Part shown: piece by piece, positions 6,605-21,626 of the stretch
Layout: each line of letters begins with the position of its first letter
Position numbering within the stretch: position 1 is the stretch's first letter
From: Desertimonas flava
GTDB lineage: Bacteria; Actinomycetota; Acidimicrobiia; Acidimicrobiales; Ilumatobacteraceae
Direction: 5' to 3'
Assembly: GCF_003426815.1 (NCBI RefSeq)
Contig: NZ_QKYK01000043.1
Coordinates: forward strand, 1-38,865
Length of the DNA: 38,865 nucleotides
Notes under the pieces: model-generated
The model's input: the letters and a program-made list of their open reading frames with translations, nothing else
Database searches by the model: none
What the model was told of the DNA's origin: nothing
Position numbers and translations under genes: made by a program

Positions 6605-7080
6605 GCGCTGATGGGGTTGTCGATCGCGTCGAGCAGCGTGTTCCACGCCAGGGTGGCGCACTTGATGCGCACCGGGAACTTCACGACGCCCTGCAATGCG
6701 GCGAGATCGCCGAGATCGGAGACGTCGTCGGCGGTGGGCTCGTCGGCCCGATCGATCGTGTCGCCCTGCTCGTCGCTGTCGATCGACATCATGCCCTTGA
6801 AGCGGCGCACGAGCGCCCGCACCTCGTCGATCGAGCGGCCCTTGATCGCCTGGGTCATCATCGACGCCGAGCTCTGCGAGATCGAGCAGCCCTGACCGCC
6901 GACCTTCACGTCGGTCACGGTGTCGCCGTCGACCTGCAGGTAGACCGTGATCTCGTCACCACAGAGCGGGTTGTGTCCACGGGCGACGTTCGCCGGAGGG
7001 GTGGGCAGCTCGCCGCGGTTGCGGGGCGTCCGGTAGTGATCGAGGATGATCTCGCGGTAGAGGTCTTCGAGACCGGGCAT
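6601..7080 (-). CDS. sufU: Zinc-dependent sulfurtransferase SufU
   Basis: 159-aa SufU, which takes persulfide sulfur from SufS and passes it to the SufBCD scaffold. The three cysteines and aspartate that bind zinc are present: C40 and D42 in NPLCGDEI, C65 in GGQGCSIS, and C141 in RIKCATLAW. The insert between C65 and C141 that separates SufU from IscU is present. ATG 7080 is preceded by AGGAG with a 5-nt gap. The gene follows sufS after 29 bp and is coupled to the thioesterase by a GTGA overlap. Confidence 0.95.
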   Translation of the reverse strand: MPGLEDLYREIILDHYRTPRNRGELPTPPANVARGHNPLCGDEITVYLQVDGDTVTDVKVGGQGCSISQSSASMMTQAIKGRSIDEVRALVRRFKGMMSIDSDEQGDTIDRADEPTADDVSDLGDLAALQGVVKFPVRIKCATLAWNTLLDAIDNPISA

Positions 7081-7109
7081 CGTGGCTCCTGGGGTCGGGG
7101 GAGAAGCGG

Positions 7110-8360
7110 CTAAATCGGGAGTCCGAAGATGTCGGACGCGCCGTCGAGGGCATCGGCGAGGGCGTCGATGTCGTGGCGATCGTTGTAGAGGTACCAGCTT
7201 GCCCGCACCGTTGCGGCGACGTCGAGTACGCGCATCAGCGGTTTGGCGCAGTGATGCCCGGCCCGCACGCAGACGTTGCGCTGGTCGAGCACCTGCGACA
7301 CGTCGTGGGGGTGGAGGTCCCGGAACGCGAAGCTGAGCACACCGCCCCGGACGCTCGCGTCCCGGGGACCGTGCAGGACGATGTCGTCGCCGAACCGCTC
7401 GGGCAGCATCTGGAGGGCGTACTCGGTGAGTGCCTGCTCGTGGGCGTGCACCCGATCCATGCCGATGTCCCGGAGGAAGTCGACGGCGGCGCCGAAGCCG
7501 ATCGCCTCGATGATCGGGGGTGTGCCGGCCTCGAACTTGGCCGGGACGGGCGCCGGTGTGAACCCGTCGGTGCGCACGTCGGCGATCATGTTGCCGCCGC
7601 CCTGGAACGGGGGAGTGGCATCGAGCATCTCGGCCTTGCCCCACAGGGCGCCGATGCCCGAGGGGCCGCACATCTTGTGACTGGAGAACCCGACGAAGTC
7701 GGCATCCCAGGCCTGCACGTCGGTGGCGTTGTGGGGCACGTACTGGCAGGCGTCGACCACGGCCAGCGCCCCGTGGGCGTGGGCGGCGGCACACAGCTCG
7801 GTCACGGGGGTGAGCGTGCCGAGGACGTTGCTCATCGCCGTGAAGGCGAAGACCTTGGCGCCGTCGAGGAGCCGATCGAGGTCGGTCAGGTCGAGTCGAC
7901 CGTCGGCGGTGAGCCGCACCCAGCGCAGCTCGATGCCGTTGCGCGCGGCCAGCATGTGCCACGGCACGATGTTGGCGTGGTGCTCCATCTCGGTGAGCAC
8001 GACGATGTCGCCGGCGCCGAGGTGGGCGCCGCCCCACGACGAGGCGACGATGTTCATCGCTTCGGTGGCGTTCTTGGTGAACACGATCTCGTCGGCGTGC
8101 CGGGCGTTGACGAAGCGGGCAACGTTGCGGCGGGCCGCCTCGAAGGCGTCGGTGGCCTCGGCGGCGAGCCGGTAGGCGCTGCGGTTGATGGGCGCGTAGC
8201 TCGTCTCGGTGAAGTGCCGCATCGCCTCGATCACCTCGACGGGCTTCTGCGACGTGTTGGCCGAGTCCAGGTAGTGCAGCGGCTGCCCGTCGATCTCGCG
8301 GCCGAGCACCGGGAAGCGCTGTTTGAGCGCGGCCAGGTCGACGCCGGCGACGCTGCTCAC
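7110..8360 (-). CDS. sufS: Cysteine desulfurase SufS
   Basis: PLP-dependent class V aminotransferase-fold enzyme that removes sulfur from L-cysteine, leaving alanine and an enzyme persulfide for SufU. The 416-aa protein has the PLP lysine K229 in SSHKMCGPSGIG, the conserved TEMEHHAN segment near residue 123, D203 in VVDACQ, and the catalytic cysteine C371 in RAGHHCAKPL, the group II (SufS/CsdA) type. GTG 8360 is the likely start. It lies between sufC2 and sufU in a minus-strand operon. The 55 bp between sufC2 and sufS hold tandem CGCTCGCTGCGC repeats. Confidence 0.96.
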   Translation of the reverse strand: MSSVAGVDLAALKQRFPVLGREIDGQPLHYLDSANTSQKPVEVIEAMRHFTETSYAPINRSAYRLAAEATDAFEAARRNVARFVNARHADEIVFTKNATEAMNIVASSWGGAHLGAGDIVVLTEMEHHANIVPWHMLAARNGIELRWVRLTADGRLDLTDLDRLLDGAKVFAFTAMSNVLGTLTPVTELCAAAHAHGALAVVDACQYVPHNATDVQAWDADFVGFSSHKMCGPSGIGALWGKAEMLDATPPFQGGGNMIADVRTDGFTPAPVPAKFEAGTPPIIEAIGFGAAVDFLRDIGMDRVHAHEQALTEYALQMLPERFGDDIVLHGPRDASVRGGVLSFAFRDLHPHDVSQVLDQRNVCVRAGHHCAKPLMRVLDVAATVRASWYLYNDRHDIDALADALDGASDIFGLPI

Positions 8361-8419: not shown

Positions 8420-9225
8420 ACCAACTCCTTGAACGCCTCGTAGCCGGCGGTCTCGAGCTGGTGGGCGAGCTCCATGCCGCCCGAGGTGACGATCCGTCCG
8501 TCGACCATGATGTGCACGACGTCGGGTGTCACCTCGTCGAGGAGGCGTTGGTAGTGGGTGATGAGGACGACCCCCATGTCGGGGCGGTCCTCCTTGACGG
8601 CGCGCAAACCCCTGGCGACGATGCGGAGGGCGTCGATGTCGAGCCCGGAGTCGGTCTCGTCGAGGATCGCCAGGCGGGGCTCGAGGATCGCCAGCTGCAT
8701 GATCTCGTTGCGCTTCTTCTCGCCGCCGGAGAAGCCCTCGTTGAGGTAGCGGTCGACGAACGACGAGTCCATGCCGAGCCGCTGCATCCACTCCATCGCG
8801 CTGAGCCGCAGCTCGAGGACCGACAGGTCGATGCCCTTGCGGGCCGACAGAGCCTGGCGGAGGAACTGGATGACCGAGACGCCGGGAATCTCCTGCGGGT
8901 ACTGGAAGGCGAGGAACATGCCCGCTTTGGCCCGCTCGTCGGTGGGCCAGTCGGTGATGTCGTCGTCGCCGAGGGTGATCGTGCCGGCGCTCACCTGATA
9001 CTCGGGCGAGCCCATCAGCGTGGAGGCCAGCGTGCTCTTGCCCGATCCGTTGGGGCCCATGATGGCGTGGACCTCGCCGGCCTGGACGGTGAGGTCGAGA
9101 CCCTTGAGGATGTCGCCGGAGACCGGGGTGCCGTCGCCGGCGGTCCCGGCACCGTCACCCGACTGGGCCGGGGTCGCCTCGGATGGGGCAGCCCGCAGGC
9201 CATCGACACGGAACAGCTGCGTCAC
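8416..9225 (-). CDS. sufC: SUF ABC-type ATPase SufC (copy 2)
   Basis: 269-aa SufC with Walker A GPNGSGKS, signature FSGGEKKRNE, Walker B DETDSGLDIDAL and LITHYQRLL, closer to the widespread bacterial SufC than copy 1, which has DELDSGLD. It carries an unusual Ser/Gly/Ala-rich insert of about 25 residues (9-33) within the first beta-strand region. GTG 9225 is preceded by TAGGAT at a 7-nt gap, which indicates leaderless transcription. It leads the sufC2-sufS-sufU-thioesterase block. Two SufC subunits are needed per SufBC2D complex, so a mixed pair or two alternative complexes are possible. Confidence 0.93.
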   Translation of the reverse strand: MTQLFRVDGLRAAPSEATPAQSGDGAGTAGDGTPVSGDILKGLDLTVQAGEVHAIMGPNGSGKSTLASTLMGSPEYQVSAGTITLGDDDITDWPTDERAKAGMFLAFQYPQEIPGVSVIQFLRQALSARKGIDLSVLELRLSAMEWMQRLGMDSSFVDRYLNEGFSGGEKKRNEIMQLAILEPRLAILDETDSGLDIDALRIVARGLRAVKEDRPDMGVVLITHYQRLLDEVTPDVVHIMVDGRIVTSGGMELAHQLETAGYEAFKELV

Positions 9226-9232
9226 GGGGATA

Positions 9233-9238
9233 ATCCTA
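9233..9238 (-). promoter_or_regulatory. Leaderless -10 (TAGGAT) of sufC2
   Basis: On the minus strand TAGGAT is followed by 7 nt and then the GTG at 9225, with no Shine-Dalgarno. Confidence 0.5.
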
Positions 9239-9278
9239 CGCGGATGTTGCTAATTCCCGGCCAGGCCGACGGAGCGCG

Positions 9279-9896
9279 TCACCAGCCGCGGGCCACCCAC
9301 TCACCGAGATGCGGTCGCTCGGCACCGATGGTCGTGTCGACGCCGTGGCCGGGCAGCACGATCGTCTCGGGCGGGAACGTGAACAGGCGGTTGTCGATCG
9401 AGCGGATGATCGTGTCGAAGTCGGCGTCGTCGAAGCTCGTGTTGCCGGGACCCCCGGGGAAGAGCGTGTCGCCGGTGAACAGGAGCGGGGTGCCGGCGAC
9501 GTGGAACGACACCGACCCTGGTGTGTGCCCCGGGTTGTGGATCGCGTGGAGCCGCAGGCGTCCGACCTCGATCGTCTCGTCGTCGTCGATGAACACGTCG
9601 TACCCGACGTCGCGGAGCTTCGGGGCGTCGGCACTGGTGACACCGACCTCGATCCCCGCCTCGCGGATGGCCGGCACCGCCTGGATGTGGTCCCAATGGC
9701 CGTGCGTCTCGAGGACCTTGCGGACGCCGAGGCCCCGGCACAGCTCGAGGAGGCGTTCGTGCTCGTTGGCGGCGTCGATCAGGGCGGCGTCGCCGGTGGC
9801 CCGGCAGCGCACGACGAAGACGTTGTTCTCGTAGGGTCCGACCACGACGCGGTGGACCACCACGTCGGCGTTCGACCAGTGCAGCGTGGTGTGCAC
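9279..9896 (-). CDS. MBL-fold (glyoxalase II-like) metallohydrolase
   Basis: 205-aa metallo-beta-lactamase-fold protein. The metal motif is ETHGHWDH (H65, H67, D69, H70), followed by GHTPGS (third His), GDTLFPGG (bridging Asp) and LPGHG (last His), so both metal sites are complete. The order and length match glyoxalase II-like or persulfide-dioxygenase-like single-domain hydrolases; it lacks the long C-terminal domain of true glyoxalase II. Substrate unknown. GTG 9896 is the first start in frame; the codons before it form a short Asp/Thr repeat. It sits between the minus-strand suf block and the flavin reductase gene. A sulfur or thioester role would fit the neighbourhood, but this is inference. 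Confidence 0.85.
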   Translation of the reverse strand: MHTTLHWSNADVVVHRVVVGPYENNVFVVRCRATGDAALIDAANEHERLLELCRGLGVRKVLETHGHWDHIQAVPAIREAGIEVGVTSADAPKLRDVGYDVFIDDDETIEVGRLRLHAIHNPGHTPGSVSFHVAGTPLLFTGDTLFPGGPGNTSFDDADFDTIIRSIDNRLFTFPPETIVLPGHGVDTTIGAERPHLGEWVARGW

Positions 9897-10034
9897 CGTG
9901 TCGAGGTCGGTGTCGAGGTCGGTGTCGGAAGTGTCCGGTGCCGGGCCGGCGCCGGACGTGGTCGTCGAGGCATCGCTGATGCCCTCACCGTACCCGCGAG
10001 CGCCGCCACGGCGGGTGCCCAGCGGCCCGGCTGG

Positions 10035-10739
10035 TCAGGACGGACCGAAGCGCTCGATGCGCACCGTCGCCGCGTCGGTTCCCAACTCCACGAGCAGGGC
10101 CGACGTGGCCTCGACGAATCCCGACGACCCGCAGAGGTAGGTGGTCGCCCCGGGGGCGAGCAGGGCCGCGACGTCGTCCCGACCGATGCGACCGGCCGGT
10201 CGCATCGACCCCGGCGGGGTCACCCTCGAATAGACGACGGTGGTGTCGGGTCGCTCGCGCAGCTCGGAGGCGTAGAGCAGGTCGGCCGGCGTGCGTACGG
10301 ACACGAGGAGGCGGGCGTCGCCTCCGGTCGCGCGGGCGTGGCGCAGCATCGACATGAGTGGCACCACGCCGGTGCCGCCGCCGATCAGGAGGGCCGGCGT
10401 CTCGCCGGTCCAGGTGAACCATCCGCCGATCGGCCCGCGCACCTCGAGCGAGTCGCCCACCTCGACACCGTCGTGGAGGAACCCCGACACCTCACCGTCG
10501 TCCAACCGTTCGACGGCGAGGTCGAGCTCGTCGCCGCCGTCGGGGGCCGACGCGATGGAGTACGACCGTTGCGCCCGGTACCCGTCGGGCGCCGTGAGCC
10601 GGACCACGACGTGTTGCCCGGGCAGGAAGTCGACGGGTGTGGCGAAGCGGAGCCGGAACGTGGCGACCCGAGCGGTCTCGGGTTCGATCGAGACGACCGT
10701 CGCGTGCTCCCACGGACGCGTCGGTGGGGCGCCGTTCAC
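10035..10739 (-). CDS. FAD/NAD(P)-binding reductase (FNR family)
   Basis: 234-aa ferredoxin-reductase-type flavoprotein without an iron-sulfur domain. The FAD-binding RSYSIAS motif is at residues 58-64, the following loop is GPIGGWFTW, the NAD(P)-binding GGGTGVVPLMSML at 120-132, and CGSSGF near the C-terminus. GTG 10739 overlaps the stop of the upstream molybdopterin gene (GTGA), so the two are co-translated. The likely job is to pass electrons between NAD(P)H and the molybdenum protein, directly or through a carrier. That partnership is inferred from the gene order. Confidence 0.9.
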   Translation of the reverse strand: MNGAPPTRPWEHATVVSIEPETARVATFRLRFATPVDFLPGQHVVVRLTAPDGYRAQRSYSIASAPDGGDELDLAVERLDDGEVSGFLHDGVEVGDSLEVRGPIGGWFTWTGETPALLIGGGTGVVPLMSMLRHARATGGDARLLVSVRTPADLLYASELRERPDTTVVYSRVTPPGSMRPAGRIGRDDVAALLAPGATTYLCGSSGFVEATSALLVELGTDAATVRIERFGPS

Positions 10740-11362
10740 TCGTCGCCCTGGTAGCGCTGCTCGCGCCAGGGGTCTCCGCGATCGTGATATCCGTTGCGCT
10801 CCCAGAAGCCGGGCTCGTCGAACTGCATGAGCCGCAGCCCGCTGACCCACTTGGCGCTCTTCCAGAAGTAGAGGTGGGGGACGAGCAGCCGCGCCGGCCC
10901 ACCGTGGTCGGCCGGGAGGGGCTTGTCGTCGGCCTCCCAGACCACCCACGCCTTGCCGCCGGTGAGGTCGTCGAGCGGCAGGTTGGTGGTGTAGCCCGTG
11001 TGCGACGTGGCCATCGCGAAGGCCGCCTCCGGCCGCGGGGAGGCGATGTCGAGCAGCGTGTCGACCGAGACCCCGGCGAACGTCACGCCGAGGCGCGACC
11101 ACGTGGTGACGCAGTGGATGTCGCCCTCGTAGCGCGAGGGCGGCAGGGCCTGCATCTCGCTCCACGTCCACGTGGTGGGGTGTTCGACGAATCCGTCGAC
11201 GCGGAACGTCCACGTGTCGGTGTCGATCGTCGGGGTGATCTCGACCGACAACACCGGCCACTCGTCCCCTCCCGATCTTGCGGTGTCGTATTGACCAGGG
11301 GGAAGACGGCGGTCGCGCCCGCCCCATCCGCGTCCGGTGAACCCTCGTGTGGAGTCGGCCAT
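10736..11362 (-). CDS. Sulfite-oxidase-like molybdopterin oxidoreductase
   Basis: 208-aa protein of the oxidoreductase molybdopterin-binding (sulfite oxidase/MsrP-like) fold. The molybdenum-binding cysteine is C84 in DIHCVTTWSRLGVTF, the family hallmark, and the segment SHTGYTTNLPLDDL is also typical. There is no Tat or Sec signal and no dimerisation domain, so it is a short cytosolic member, unlike periplasmic MsrP. ATG 11362 is only 21 bp from the divergent flippase start. With the coupled flavin reductase it makes a compact two-gene redox pair. Substrate unknown (sulfite, sulfoxide or other). Confidence 0.88.
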   Translation of the reverse strand: MADSTRGFTGRGWGGRDRRLPPGQYDTARSGGDEWPVLSVEITPTIDTDTWTFRVDGFVEHPTTWTWSEMQALPPSRYEGDIHCVTTWSRLGVTFAGVSVDTLLDIASPRPEAAFAMATSHTGYTTNLPLDDLTGGKAWVVWEADDKPLPADHGGPARLLVPHLYFWKSAKWVSGLRLMQFDEPGFWERNGYHDRGDPWREQRYQGDE

Positions 11363-17757: not shown

Positions 17758-17816
17758 CAGCAAGCTGCGCTCATCGCCGCATCGGAGGGGGAATCCCCCT
17801 CCGAGCCTCCCCCGAG
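17758..17816. repeat. GC-rich dispersed repeat, copy 2
   Basis: Matches copy 1 at 104-160: CAGCAAGCT, CGCTC.TCGCCGCATCGG, then a perfect 8-bp hairpin GGAGGGGG-AAT-CCCCCTCC and a C-rich CCGAG tail. The stem differs from copy 1 while the pairing is kept. Confidence 0.6.
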
Positions 17817-17840
17817 ATAGTGCCAGGCACTATCTCGGGG
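17810..17840. terminator. Perfect 14-bp hairpin after polA
   Basis: Arms 17810-17823 and 17827-17840 pair around loop CAG. The arms match the inner 14 bp of the livG hairpin, but the centre is GTGCCAGGCAC, that is, the inverted orientation. It lies between convergent polA and the PPOX gene; probable bidirectional terminator. Confidence 0.7.
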
Positions 17841-17846
17841 CCCCCG

Positions 17847-19416: not shown

Positions 19417-19692
19417 TCAGCGGCGGTGATGGCGTACCTGGCTGCCTCGGGCGGCGCAGGCGATGCCGAGCCCGGCGGACATGAACATGGCGGCGAGCAG
19501 GGCGATCGTCATCGATGGGCCACCCGTCGACGGGAGCTGGGCGAGGTCGGGCCCGCCCGGGACCACGTGGGGCCGGTCGGCCGCTCCGGCGGAGGCGACC
19601 GCCGCACCGGCGACGAGGGGGACGAGGCCGAGGCCCATCGCCACGGCGAGGCGGCGGGCGACCCGGCTGCTGCGGTGGGGTCGGTCGTTCAT
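19417..19692 (-). CDS. Small LPXTG-anchored surface protein
   Basis: 91 aa with the full sortase-substrate layout. It has a basic N-terminus and signal peptide (about 1-38, RRLAVAMGLGLVPLVAGAAV), a spacer of some 15 residues, the sorting motif LPSTG at 53-57 followed by GP, a hydrophobic segment (60-80) and a basic tail ending RHHRR. The mature part between signal peptide and LPSTG is very short and has no domain. ATG 19692 has AGGAG 5 nt upstream; the longer reading from 19761 lacks a signal-peptide start. It lies 94 bp downstream of the sigma-factor fusion gene on the same strand, so it may share its transcript. No sortase gene is in the window. Confidence 0.75.
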   Translation of the reverse strand: MNDRPHRSSRVARRLAVAMGLGLVPLVAGAAVASAGAADRPHVVPGGPDLAQLPSTGGPSMTIALLAAMFMSAGLGIACAARGSQVRHHRR

Positions 19693-19786
19693 GGCGTGCT
19701 CCTGAGCTCGGGAGCGCCCGGCGGGCGCCTCATCCGTCCAGAGCTCGAGGGCGGCTCCCACTCGCGCATTTTCGCCTGGCGAGCGG

Positions 19787-21505
19787 TCAGTGGGGCGGTT
19801 CGTACGTCGTGGTGGTGAAGATCGGGACGAACGGCGGGATGATGATGATCACCGGCGTCGTCGGCGACGTGGGGGTCACGAAGACGAGCGGAGTCGTCGT
19901 GGTCGTGGTCGTCGTGCGGCCGGGACGGTCGTTGCCCGGCGGTCTGGTGGTGGTGGTCGTCGCCGCGGTGGTCGTCGTCGTGTCCGGCGTGGCCGGCGCC
20001 GTCGTCGTGGTGCGGCGCGGCGGCCGCGTCGTGCCCGTCGTCCCCGTGGTTCCCGTGGGAGCGACGAAGACGCTGATGTAGGTGGTCGGCGGCGCCGTGA
20101 CGGTCGTCGGCGTCGTCGACGACGTCGTGGTCGACGATGTCGTGGTCGACGATGTCGTGGTCGACGTCGTCGTGGTCGACGTCGTCGTGGTCGACGTCGA
20201 GGTGCTCGTCGTCGAGGTGCTGGTCGTGGACGTGGACGTCGAGGTGGAGGTGGACGTGGACGTGGAGGTGGGCGTGGACGGCGAGGTCGAGGTCGTGGTC
20301 GTGGTGCTGCTGGAGACGGGCGGGGGGAGCGGCGGAGCGAGGGCCTCGCCGACGGAGCCGTTCACCCCGCCGATCCGGACGCTCCACAGCGACGTGGCCA
20401 GCACGATCGCGAAGGCGGCCGTCAGGGTGGCCGTGATCGGCCCGACGAGCGAGCGGTGCCTGGTGAAGCCGATGGGAAAGCCCTCGTCGTCGAAGCGGTA
20501 CCGGCGGGCGGTCCGTTGCTCGCGTCGGCTGGTCCGGCTCCGCCGGCGCAACCGGCCGTGGGACCCCGACCCCGGCCCGGGGTCCGAGCCGGGCGTCGAC
20601 CCCGACATCGAGCCGGAGTCCTGGCCCGATCCGGACATGGCCGACCCGTCGGGGGTGGTCGAGCCCGCCCCGGAGCCTCCCGCGGCGGCCGCGGCGTCGG
20701 CCGCCGCATGGGCCGCTTCGAGCGTGCGGGCCCGCAGGGCGAGCGGGGCGGCGAACGCCGGCGCCGCACTGGCCAGCGAGAGGACGGCCGCGCCGCGCCG
20801 GGTCTCCTGGCACGTCGAGCAGGCGTCGATGTGGCGGGCGATGCGCTTGCGCCAGAGGATGTTGAAGGTGCCGTCCCAGCCCGTCAGGACCTTGGCGAGG
20901 TCAGCGCATCGGCGGCGTCCACCGCGCGCGACGACGACGGCGCCGACCGCCCGTTCCAGCCGTTCGCGCATCCGGAAGAGCATCGAGTGCGCTTGCCCCG
21001 CCGGGATCCCCATGGCGGCGGCCAGCTCGGCGCCGACGAGTCCCTGGCGGGCGGAGAGCTCGAGCAGCAACTGGTCGGACTCGTCGAGGCCGGCCGCGGC
21101 GTCGCGGACCAGTTCGGCGAGATCCGACTCGATCGCCGCGCCGCCGTCGGCATGAGGATCGGGGGGCGCCATCGGGTCGTCACCCCGCTCGGCCACGATG
21201 GCATCGAGCGACGTGCCCTCGCGGGCCCGGCGTTTGCTGCGCCGGTAGATCTCGTGCCGGGCGATCGCGTAGAGCCACGGCTTCACCCGTGAGGGGTCGC
21301 GCAGCTGGGAGAGCTTCACCGCGGCCACACAGAAGACGTCCTGGACCACGTCGGACGCCCCGTCGGGATCGCGGAGCATCGCCCGCGCCGTGTCGTACAG
21401 CCCAGGCGCGAAGCGGTCGTACAGCGCGGCGAGCGCGTTGCGATCGCCGGCCAGATACGCCTGCACGATCGCCGCGTCGGTACCCGCCACGCCTGGTTGT
21501 CTCAT
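19787..21505 (-). CDS. Membrane-tethered ECF sigma factor with zinc-finger and Thr/Ser-rich outer domain
   Basis: 572 aa. Residues 15-95 are sigma region 2 (GDRNALAALYDRFAPGLYDTA, VVQDVF) and 130-190 region 4 (ELSARQGLVGAELAAAMGIPAGQAHSML), an ECF-type sigma-70 factor. A zinc-binding element follows: C200, then RKRIARHIDACSTC with H225-x3-C229-x2-C232, like the ZAS motif of anti-sigma factors. After a Gly/Ser-rich linker and an Arg-rich patch (320-336) comes one membrane helix (about 352-374). From 395 to the end there is a low-complexity Thr/Ser/Pro region, presumably outside the cell and probably glycosylated. AGGAG lies 9 nt before ATG 21505. ECF factors with C-terminal extensions of this kind are known in actinobacteria; what this one senses is unknown. 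Confidence 0.88.
   Translation of the reverse strand: MRQPGVAGTDAAIVQAYLAGDRNALAALYDRFAPGLYDTARAMLRDPDGASDVVQDVFCVAAVKLSQLRDPSRVKPWLYAIARHEIYRRSKRRAREGTSLDAIVAERGDDPMAPPDPHADGGAAIESDLAELVRDAAAGLDESDQLLLELSARQGLVGAELAAAMGIPAGQAHSMLFRMRERLERAVGAVVVARGGRRRCADLAKVLTGWDGTFNILWRKRIARHIDACSTCQETRRGAAVLSLASAAPAFAAPLALRARTLEAAHAAADAAAAAGGSGAGSTTPDGSAMSGSGQDSGSMSGSTPGSDPGPGSGSHGRLRRRSRTSRREQRTARRYRFDDEGFPIGFTRHRSLVGPITATLTAAFAIVLATSLWSVRIGGVNGSVGEALAPPLPPPVSSSTTTTTSTSPSTPTSTSTSTSTSTSTSTTSTSTTSTSTSTTTTSTTTTSTTTSSTTTSSTTTSSTTPTTVTAPPTTYISVFVAPTGTTGTTGTTRPPRRTTTTAPATPDTTTTTAATTTTTRPPGNDRPGRTTTTTTTTPLVFVTPTSPTTPVIIIIPPFVPIFTTTTYEPPH
20095..20310. repeat. Degenerate short repeats coding the Thr/Ser tract
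   Basis: Repeats of GTCGTGGTCGACGATGTC-type units (plus-strand view), 9-18 bp, encode the TTTTS/TSTST tract of the sigma fusion. The array could change length by slippage. Confidence 0.6.
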
Positions 21506-21626
21506 CGAGCATCGCTCCTGGTCCTTCTCGCGTCGTCAGACGTCCAGAGCCTCCACCGGCCGGGCGCTCGCGAGAACCTGCGAATTCTTCCATCCTCGGG
21601 CGACGCCGCCAGATGATTTCCGCCCG

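Follow-up and report, generated by a model that had tools for sequence, protein, structure and literature searches.

A single gene of the actinobacterium Desertimonas flava probably encodes a self-inhibited, membrane-held sigma factor that transcribes both itself and the adjoining gene for a small LPXTG protein. The two genes lie on the minus strand of a stretch of 38,865 nucleotides (contig NZ_QKYK01000043.1, positions 1 to 38,865 of the forward strand; hereafter the window), the sigma gene at 19787..21505 and the LPXTG gene at 19417..19692. Control of both genes by this sigma factor is thought probable because both bear the same rare promoter-like sequence, GCGAG-N17-CTCTGGAC, in exact form: at 21542..21571 (minus strand) before the sigma gene, where it is common to the sigma genes of relatives, and at 19736..19765 (minus strand) before the LPXTG gene, inside the 94-bp gap. 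These two elements are absent from an earlier reading made from the letters of the window (the sequence-only reading), which had described a 572-residue frame with sigma regions 2 and 4, C200 plus H225-x3-C229-x2-C232, a single helix and a Thr/Ser/Pro stalk, followed 94 bp downstream by a 91-residue LPXTG protein with almost no mature domain. Translation bears out both descriptions, and profile scans agree with that of the larger protein.

The 572-residue protein begins with sigma region 2 (residues 28-95, 21221..21424), matched by Pfam PF04542 with E 4.4e-11, and the whole protein matches Sigma70_r2 with E 1.5e-10. Region 4 (residues 132-183, 20957..21112) is matched weakly, with E 0.011 in the whole protein and E 0.0036 (PF08281) in a 275-residue piece, both below the curated cut-off; it is matched at E <= 0.05 in 33 of 40 aligned family members, and a fold match to SigW covers residues 7-190. 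The general model TIGR02937 for extracytoplasmic function (ECF) sigma factors gives 56 bits against a cut-off of 42.9, and regions 2 and 4 without region 3 are the arrangement that defines an ECF factor. An anti-sigma-like domain follows in the same frame (residues 190-266, 20708..20938), with C200, H225, C229 and C232, and the only other cysteine of the protein is at position 59. Next come a basic stretch (13 K/R vs 4 D/E in residues 311-352) and a predicted membrane helix (residues 353-371, 20393..20449, hydropathy 1.88), which is the only hydrophobic segment; its best 19-mer starts at residue 352/353 and ends at 371. The outer part (residues 375-572, 19790..20383) is a stalk of 198 residues, 71% of them Thr, Ser or Pro, with no Cys and no immunoglobulin (Ig)-like domain. 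AGGAG at 21515..21519 (minus strand) is the probable ribosome-binding site of this gene.

The fusion is conserved. A search with residues 1-275 found the gene in 63 of the 221 genomes of the host's family (E <= 1e-25) and, at E <= 1e-15, in 10 of 41 relatives, the host being included in both counts. Out of 91 frames found, the 70 that differ in the core were taken as the orthologue set, which gives 71 alignment rows with the window, two of which do not cover the C/H region. C200, H225 and C229 are kept in 69/69 covering rows and C232 in 68/69, so the fusion appears to be more than chance. The sequence-only reading had named relatives with the extension but without the helix and the C/H residues as the sign of an accidental tether; beside these nearly invariant residues, a hydrophobic helix was found after the cluster in 51 of the 55 complete orthologues covering the region, and 44 of the 51 have an outer tail with exactly two Cys. 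The remaining four (L075-L078) end after the cluster and are also without the conserved segment that follows it. They are a natural short form, with sigma and C/H/C/C cluster and no helix or stalk (L075:1404-2156, L076:5330-6079, L077:919-1671 and L078:3511-4260), and their genes sit in the usual neighbourhood. In both the window and the complete orthologues, sigma and anti-sigma-like domain share one open frame, and the canonical arrangement with a separate anti-sigma gene is not seen. Beyond the family, in samples of 395 genomes from the class and 396 from the phylum, a profile of the anti-sigma region matched 70 (E <= 1e-6) and 56 (E <= 1e-4), respectively. The weakest matches in the phylum include shorter frames, possibly separate anti-sigma proteins; a sigma-domain match lies in the same locus for 29/29 loci re-read among L154-L182, one of them the window. 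A scan of genome contigs added one good relative, from a metagenome-assembled genome of Mycobacterium sp. (L051), and a plasmid collection gave 9 records, of which the five covering most of the query are 29-34% identical to it.

The anti-sigma-like domain resembles a known one. A profile of residues 190-266 built from 38 rows had a sole match at E <= 10 among 177,635 PDB sequences, the anti-sigma factor RsiW (E 0.0074), and the alignment runs through H-x3-C-x2-C. C200, H225, C229 and C232 provide this motif together with the upstream Cys/His ligand of class I (ZAS-type) domains. Furthermore, an AlphaFold2 model of residues 1-275 (40-row alignment, no templates, predicted local distance difference test [pLDDT] 86.2, predicted template modelling score 0.72) superposes well on SigW from the SigW:RsiW complex (Z 15.9, 3.3 Å over 157 residues) and on CnrH from CnrH:CnrY (Z 15.0, 3.1 Å over 154), while the RNA-polymerase-bound ECF factors that align over both sigma domains (6dv9, 5zx2, 6koo, 9m98 and others) deviate from it by about 22-28 Å. 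The predicted arrangement of sigma2 and sigma4 thus looks closed, as in two known anti-sigma complexes, and the C-H-C-C cluster would be expected to bind zinc and the domain to inhibit the sigma unit. Together with the conserved helix and C/H residues, the RsiW match and the model support the one-piece, membrane-tethered sigma/anti-sigma protein that the sequence-only reading had proposed.

In such a protein, the zinc-type anti-sigma domain would keep the sigma2-sigma4 unit shut in cis, and the single helix would tie it to the inner face of the membrane, with the stalk outside. A signal from outside would release the sigma part, most likely through successive proteolytic cuts, one of them by a site-2 protease; a gene for an M50 protease is present once in the host genome, and such genes are found in all 14 control genomes. 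Or the protein may be a cytoplasmic switch, in which oxidation or metal loss at the cluster frees the sigma factor, and helix and stalk only position it. Indeed, RsiW has been crystallised in oxidised and zinc forms (titles of 5wur and 5wuq), and the short forms L075-L078 keep the cluster without a helix. These four have also lost the segment behind the cluster, however, and the frequencies of the helix and of the two-Cys tail among complete orthologues suggest outside sensing, which makes the cytoplasmic switch unlikely, although it is the strongest of the alternatives considered here.

The evidence for target genes comes from the element. In the host genome of 6.2 Mb, exact N17 copies number exactly two, the one before the sigma gene and the one before the LPXTG gene, and there is one exact N16 copy, on contig C3. 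With one mismatch allowed, 8 sites (2 of them exact) are found against 9 in a reversed control, so that single one-mismatch sites mean little alone. By an order-0 estimate, about 4e-6 exact elements would be expected on that strand of the gap. Among 77,632 positions, a matrix built on 25 sites from other genomes gave its top score to the LPXTG site (35.8, inside the training range of 27.5-49.3); the sigma site came second with 19.1, which lies under that range, and the third position scored -3.7. A matrix from 32 sigma upstream regions without the window placed the same two sites first and second (28.5 and 18.2; third 8.8), with maxima of 8.1-15.2 in 20 resampled windows. The motif was discovered with the window's sigma site in sight; the LPXTG site was in no training set. 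An AAAA tract (19769..19772, minus strand) stands ahead of the LPXTG element, as in relatives. No further element was found in the other listed loci of the host genome (39 loci, 160 kb, the two covering the window being left out), where the best score was 0.2. A scan for a sigma-70 consensus promoter found none, and one terminator-like site was found, inside the sigma gene. Judged by these sequences, the freed sigma factor would read two GCGAG-N17-CTCTGGAC promoters. Through the one before its own gene it would feed back positively on itself; the other would drive the neighbouring LPXTG gene, and the LPXTG protein would be anchored in the wall by a sortase. Since the promoter-like element of the sigma family itself stands before the LPXTG gene, the two genes are probably paired by more than accident. 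The sequence-only reading had offered the LPXTG peptide as target, ligand or cell-wall partner of the sigma protein; the element speaks for a target gene, and no evidence was found for a ligand or wall partner.

The LPXTG gene starts 94 bp past the sigma stop codon, with AGGAG, its probable ribosome-binding site (19699..19703, minus strand), 6 nt ahead of the ATG. Its G+C content by codon position is 0.78/0.62/0.90. The product has a signal-peptide-like start, judged by eye, then LPSTG, a hydrophobic stretch and a basic end. The anchor model gave 16.6 bits in the genome search (cut-off 15.9), which 9 of 14 control genomes also pass, and 15.0 bits, below cut-off, in a single-protein scan; the protein is below the Pfam cut-off as well. 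The host genome has two PF04203 (sortase) matches over cut-off, and near the second of them (contig C11, L120 about 6784-7650 and 8944-10827) another ECF-like gene lies some 2 kb away. Homologues of the peptide are seen as weak matches (E <= 1) in 146 of 221 genomes, and the best one outside the host (E 4e-5, genome G143) is merely the LPDTG end of another protein. Elsewhere in the window, there are two copies of a palindromic stretch, CCGAGATAGTGCC..GGCACTATCTCGG, at 1829-1861 and 17812-17841.

The GCGAG-N17 element is found before sigma genes of relatives as well. Upstream regions were taken from 64 of the 71 rows (without L022, L131, L136, L137, L138, L130 and rows short of upstream DNA), and exact GCGAG-N17-CTCT is present in 22 of them; in five shuffles, no dyad of whatever kind did better than 4-5. 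The matrix passes 36/64, the window included, at 14-46 bases ahead of the start codon; these are spread over genera g1, g10, g12, g13, g19 and g22, near relatives counting repeatedly. Looser forms, some of which may be chance, precede the sigma gene in 8 of 28 further loci, the window not counted. Across the family, 30 exact N17 sites are found in the 63 genomes with the sigma gene and 7 in the 158 without it (Fisher p 0.003; 0.017 leaving out sites at sigma genes), while N16 and N18 sites together number 14 in the former and 17 in the latter. An A/T tract, defined after the sites had been seen as AAA or TTT within 14 bases before GCGAG, accompanies 24 of the 30 N17 sites of sigma-bearing genomes compared with 4 of 38 other sites (p 8e-9), and 19 of 23 when sites at sigma genes are left out (p 2e-8).

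With gene starts chosen by a ribosome-binding-site rule made for this analysis, the 24 tract-bearing N17 sites stand at sigma genes (5), before WhiB genes (5; two confirmed by PF02467, three by likeness), before LPXTG-type genes (5) and before other genes (9). The LPXTG-type genes are that of the window and four of relatives, with LPRTG (L231), LPTTG (L232), LPETG (L233) and MPHTG (L234); TIGR01167 is over cut-off in L231 and L234, under it in L233 and absent in L232, and the Pfam anchor is under cut-off in three. In relatives, the LPXTG genes with the element lie elsewhere in the genome than sigma. By eye, the products of the nine other genes appear to be exported or membrane-anchored, and one of them has a subtilase domain. 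N17 sites without a tract include two inside frames (L193 and L194); in L228 such a site precedes an M23-domain protein, and in L201 it lies about 130 bases before a lipoprotein-like gene. In L203 (genome G138, an 83% complete assembly), a tract-bearing element stands before an exported protein, and no sigma orthologue was detected. In relatives, this sigma family would read the element in front of genes for further LPXTG and exported proteins and for WhiB regulators.

Another regulator, a WhiB protein or a different ECF factor, might read the element, sigma and LPXTG genes being merely co-regulated. The host genome holds seventeen other ECF-like matches, and the WhiB genes of relatives bear the element themselves; against this stand the 17-base spacing, fixed as between -35 and -10 boxes, and the preference of N17 sites for sigma-bearing genomes, which N16 and N18 sites do not share. 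Such a regulator is considered improbable, and recognition of the element by the fused sigma factor itself is the reading suggested by spacing and distribution.

The outer part differs among relatives. In many of them the last ~200 residues are two Ig-like domains: 20 of 22 chosen members match a HYDIN-type Ig model and 19 match BACON_2 (E <= 0.05), and a model of the outer part of L065 (pLDDT 93.5) has Ig-type folds, for which Foldseek gave domain-level matches only (template modelling score to query <= 0.48 among the matches listed). A Cys-less tail like that of the window protein is also found in four other complete frames (L051, L127, L132 and L133), which may be assembly faults. Loss of the Ig-like part by frame shift was considered for the window and not seen, since the LPXTG element and gene come directly after the stalk. 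In large actinobacterial genomes, fused ECF factors with outer ends that look CAP/SCP-like by eye were noticed (L176 and L178), so the outer domain seems to differ between lineages.

The sigma gene of relatives usually belongs to a shared block, present in 23 of 34 loci, with a glycosyltransferase-like gene after sigma and epimerase-like and acyltransferase-like genes before it (labels by eye); the block's sortase is within the examined flank in 11/34. In the host, contig C20 carries the block without sigma and without the epimerase-like gene, consisting of a sortase (PF04203) and acyltransferase-, deacylase-, glycosyltransferase-, methyltransferase- and prenyltransferase-like genes. In a tree made without L022, L131, L136, L137 and L138, the window's sigma joins the clade to which all block-bearing rows belong (98/96), taking a place just outside it (86/91) on a long branch (0.81). 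A simple relocation of sigma out of the block comes to mind; because the placement has a support of only 86/91 and the branch is long, no direction of movement is claimed.

Several observations weigh against a tethered sigma factor that controls the two genes. An LPXTG frame beside sigma was found in 0/34 orthologue loci (flank lengths vary, several are short, and the pattern would miss MPHTG-like motifs); the sole automatic flag, in L065, was a VADTA string on the opposite strand. Conserved synteny, which the sequence-only reading had proposed as a check and in whose absence it would have called the pairing accidental, is thereby rejected as a link between the two genes. The window protein has the stalk only, without the outer Ig-like domain of most relatives, and its sigma element is without the A/T tract that its LPXTG element has. 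With up to three mismatches, the window holds 17 sites, fewer than the 36 of chance. The family holds 68 exact N16-N18 sites, fewer than the roughly 101 of the reversed control, because of which only spacing, tract and sigma presence mark true sites, and the family-wide number was dropped as evidence; the tract rule, as said, came after the sites. On the protein side, 3/40 members match Pfam zf-HC2 at E <= 0.05, the best with E 0.0098, and the window protein does not match it. The fit of the model to SigK:RskA is poorer (6.6 Å over 125 residues), E. coli sigmaE, AlgU and SigE:ChrR align with it over 83-90 residues only, and free SigG1 fits fairly too (Z 13.4, 4.5 Å); moreover, the structure predictor may have learned the closed form from known complexes.

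Two further explanations start from these points. In one, fusion and elements are accidental: the anti-sigma domain would be degenerate, and a promoter arisen by chance or duplication would stand before an unrelated gene. The missing synteny, the lost outer domain and the long branch would fit, but the ligand residues are nearly invariant, an exact element is hardly expected in the gap, and LPXTG and exported targets recur in relatives, so that this is the least probable of all explanations. In the other, a stronger form of the sequence-only reading, the LPXTG peptide is a ligand or wall partner that gates the outer stalk. Adjacency, co-regulation and loss of the outer Ig-like domain in the window protein would suit it; the missing LPXTG neighbours in relatives and the position of their element-bearing LPXTG genes elsewhere in the genome leave it very doubtful. 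Equally speculative is the idea that this lineage shed the outer Ig-like sensor and most of the regulon, leaving a two-gene circuit in which a bare stalk senses the status of wall or sortase and sorting of the peptide feeds back on sigma release. The self-inhibited, membrane-held sigma factor acting on its own gene and on the LPXTG gene is still the likely reading.

If so, the 13-base element with fixed spacing predicts promoter, autoregulation and a regulon of surface proteins (LPXTG, exported and WhiB) in several genera, and through it the two genes of the window are linked by sequence, beyond position alone. The question of what such a sensor controls would be reduced to a simple reporter test, and the natural losses of outer domain or helix in relatives are ready variants for asking what triggers release.

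One-piece ECF factors as such are known, as groups ECF48, ECF52 and ECF53 (PMC8999054, PMC5826349); what would be new is that such a factor comes with a promoter-like element that can be recognised, and with a predicted regulon of surface proteins to which the adjacent LPXTG gene belongs. In titles and abstract openings, a search that does not cover most subscription papers, nothing was found on the GCGAG-N17-CTCTGGAC element or on an LPXTG regulon of fused ECF factors. ECF48 and ECF53 are, like the window protein, actinobacterial ECF factors with a C-terminal zinc finger, one or two helices and extensions of up to 400 residues, and they are expected to be activated by proteolysis; the part of PMC8999054 that was available gives no promoter or regulon for them. 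SigW and RsiW (5wuq, 5wur) share with the window protein the sigma arrangement and the H-x3-C-x2-C anti-sigma domain, but are two proteins. BldN is likewise an ECF factor controlling surface proteins, among which long chaplins are sortase substrates, and its anti-sigma RsbN is encoded by a separate adjacent gene, unlike the fusion (PMC4255298). IutY of Pseudomonas putida (ECF243) does join sigma and membrane anti-sigma in one protein and is released by proteolysis, but in Gram-negative cell-surface signalling for iron uptake; it is described as the only case with a mechanism shown experimentally (PMC8999054). A close counterpart is the ECF52 member SCO4117 of Streptomyces coelicolor, the only one-piece actinobacterial factor with a proposed motif and targets in the literature found, which also unites an ECF sigma factor with a zinc finger, a transmembrane region and a low-complexity outer part. 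According to PMC5826349, its autoregulation and release by protease have been proposed, and its knockout lowers chaplins, rodlins and secreted proteins. ECF52 proteins differ in a Pro-rich rather than Thr-rich stalk, in a terminal carbohydrate-binding module, for which the window protein with its low-complexity tail has no match, and in the reported motif, CSGYN-17-SRHA, as opposed to GCGAG-N17-CTCTGGAC here.

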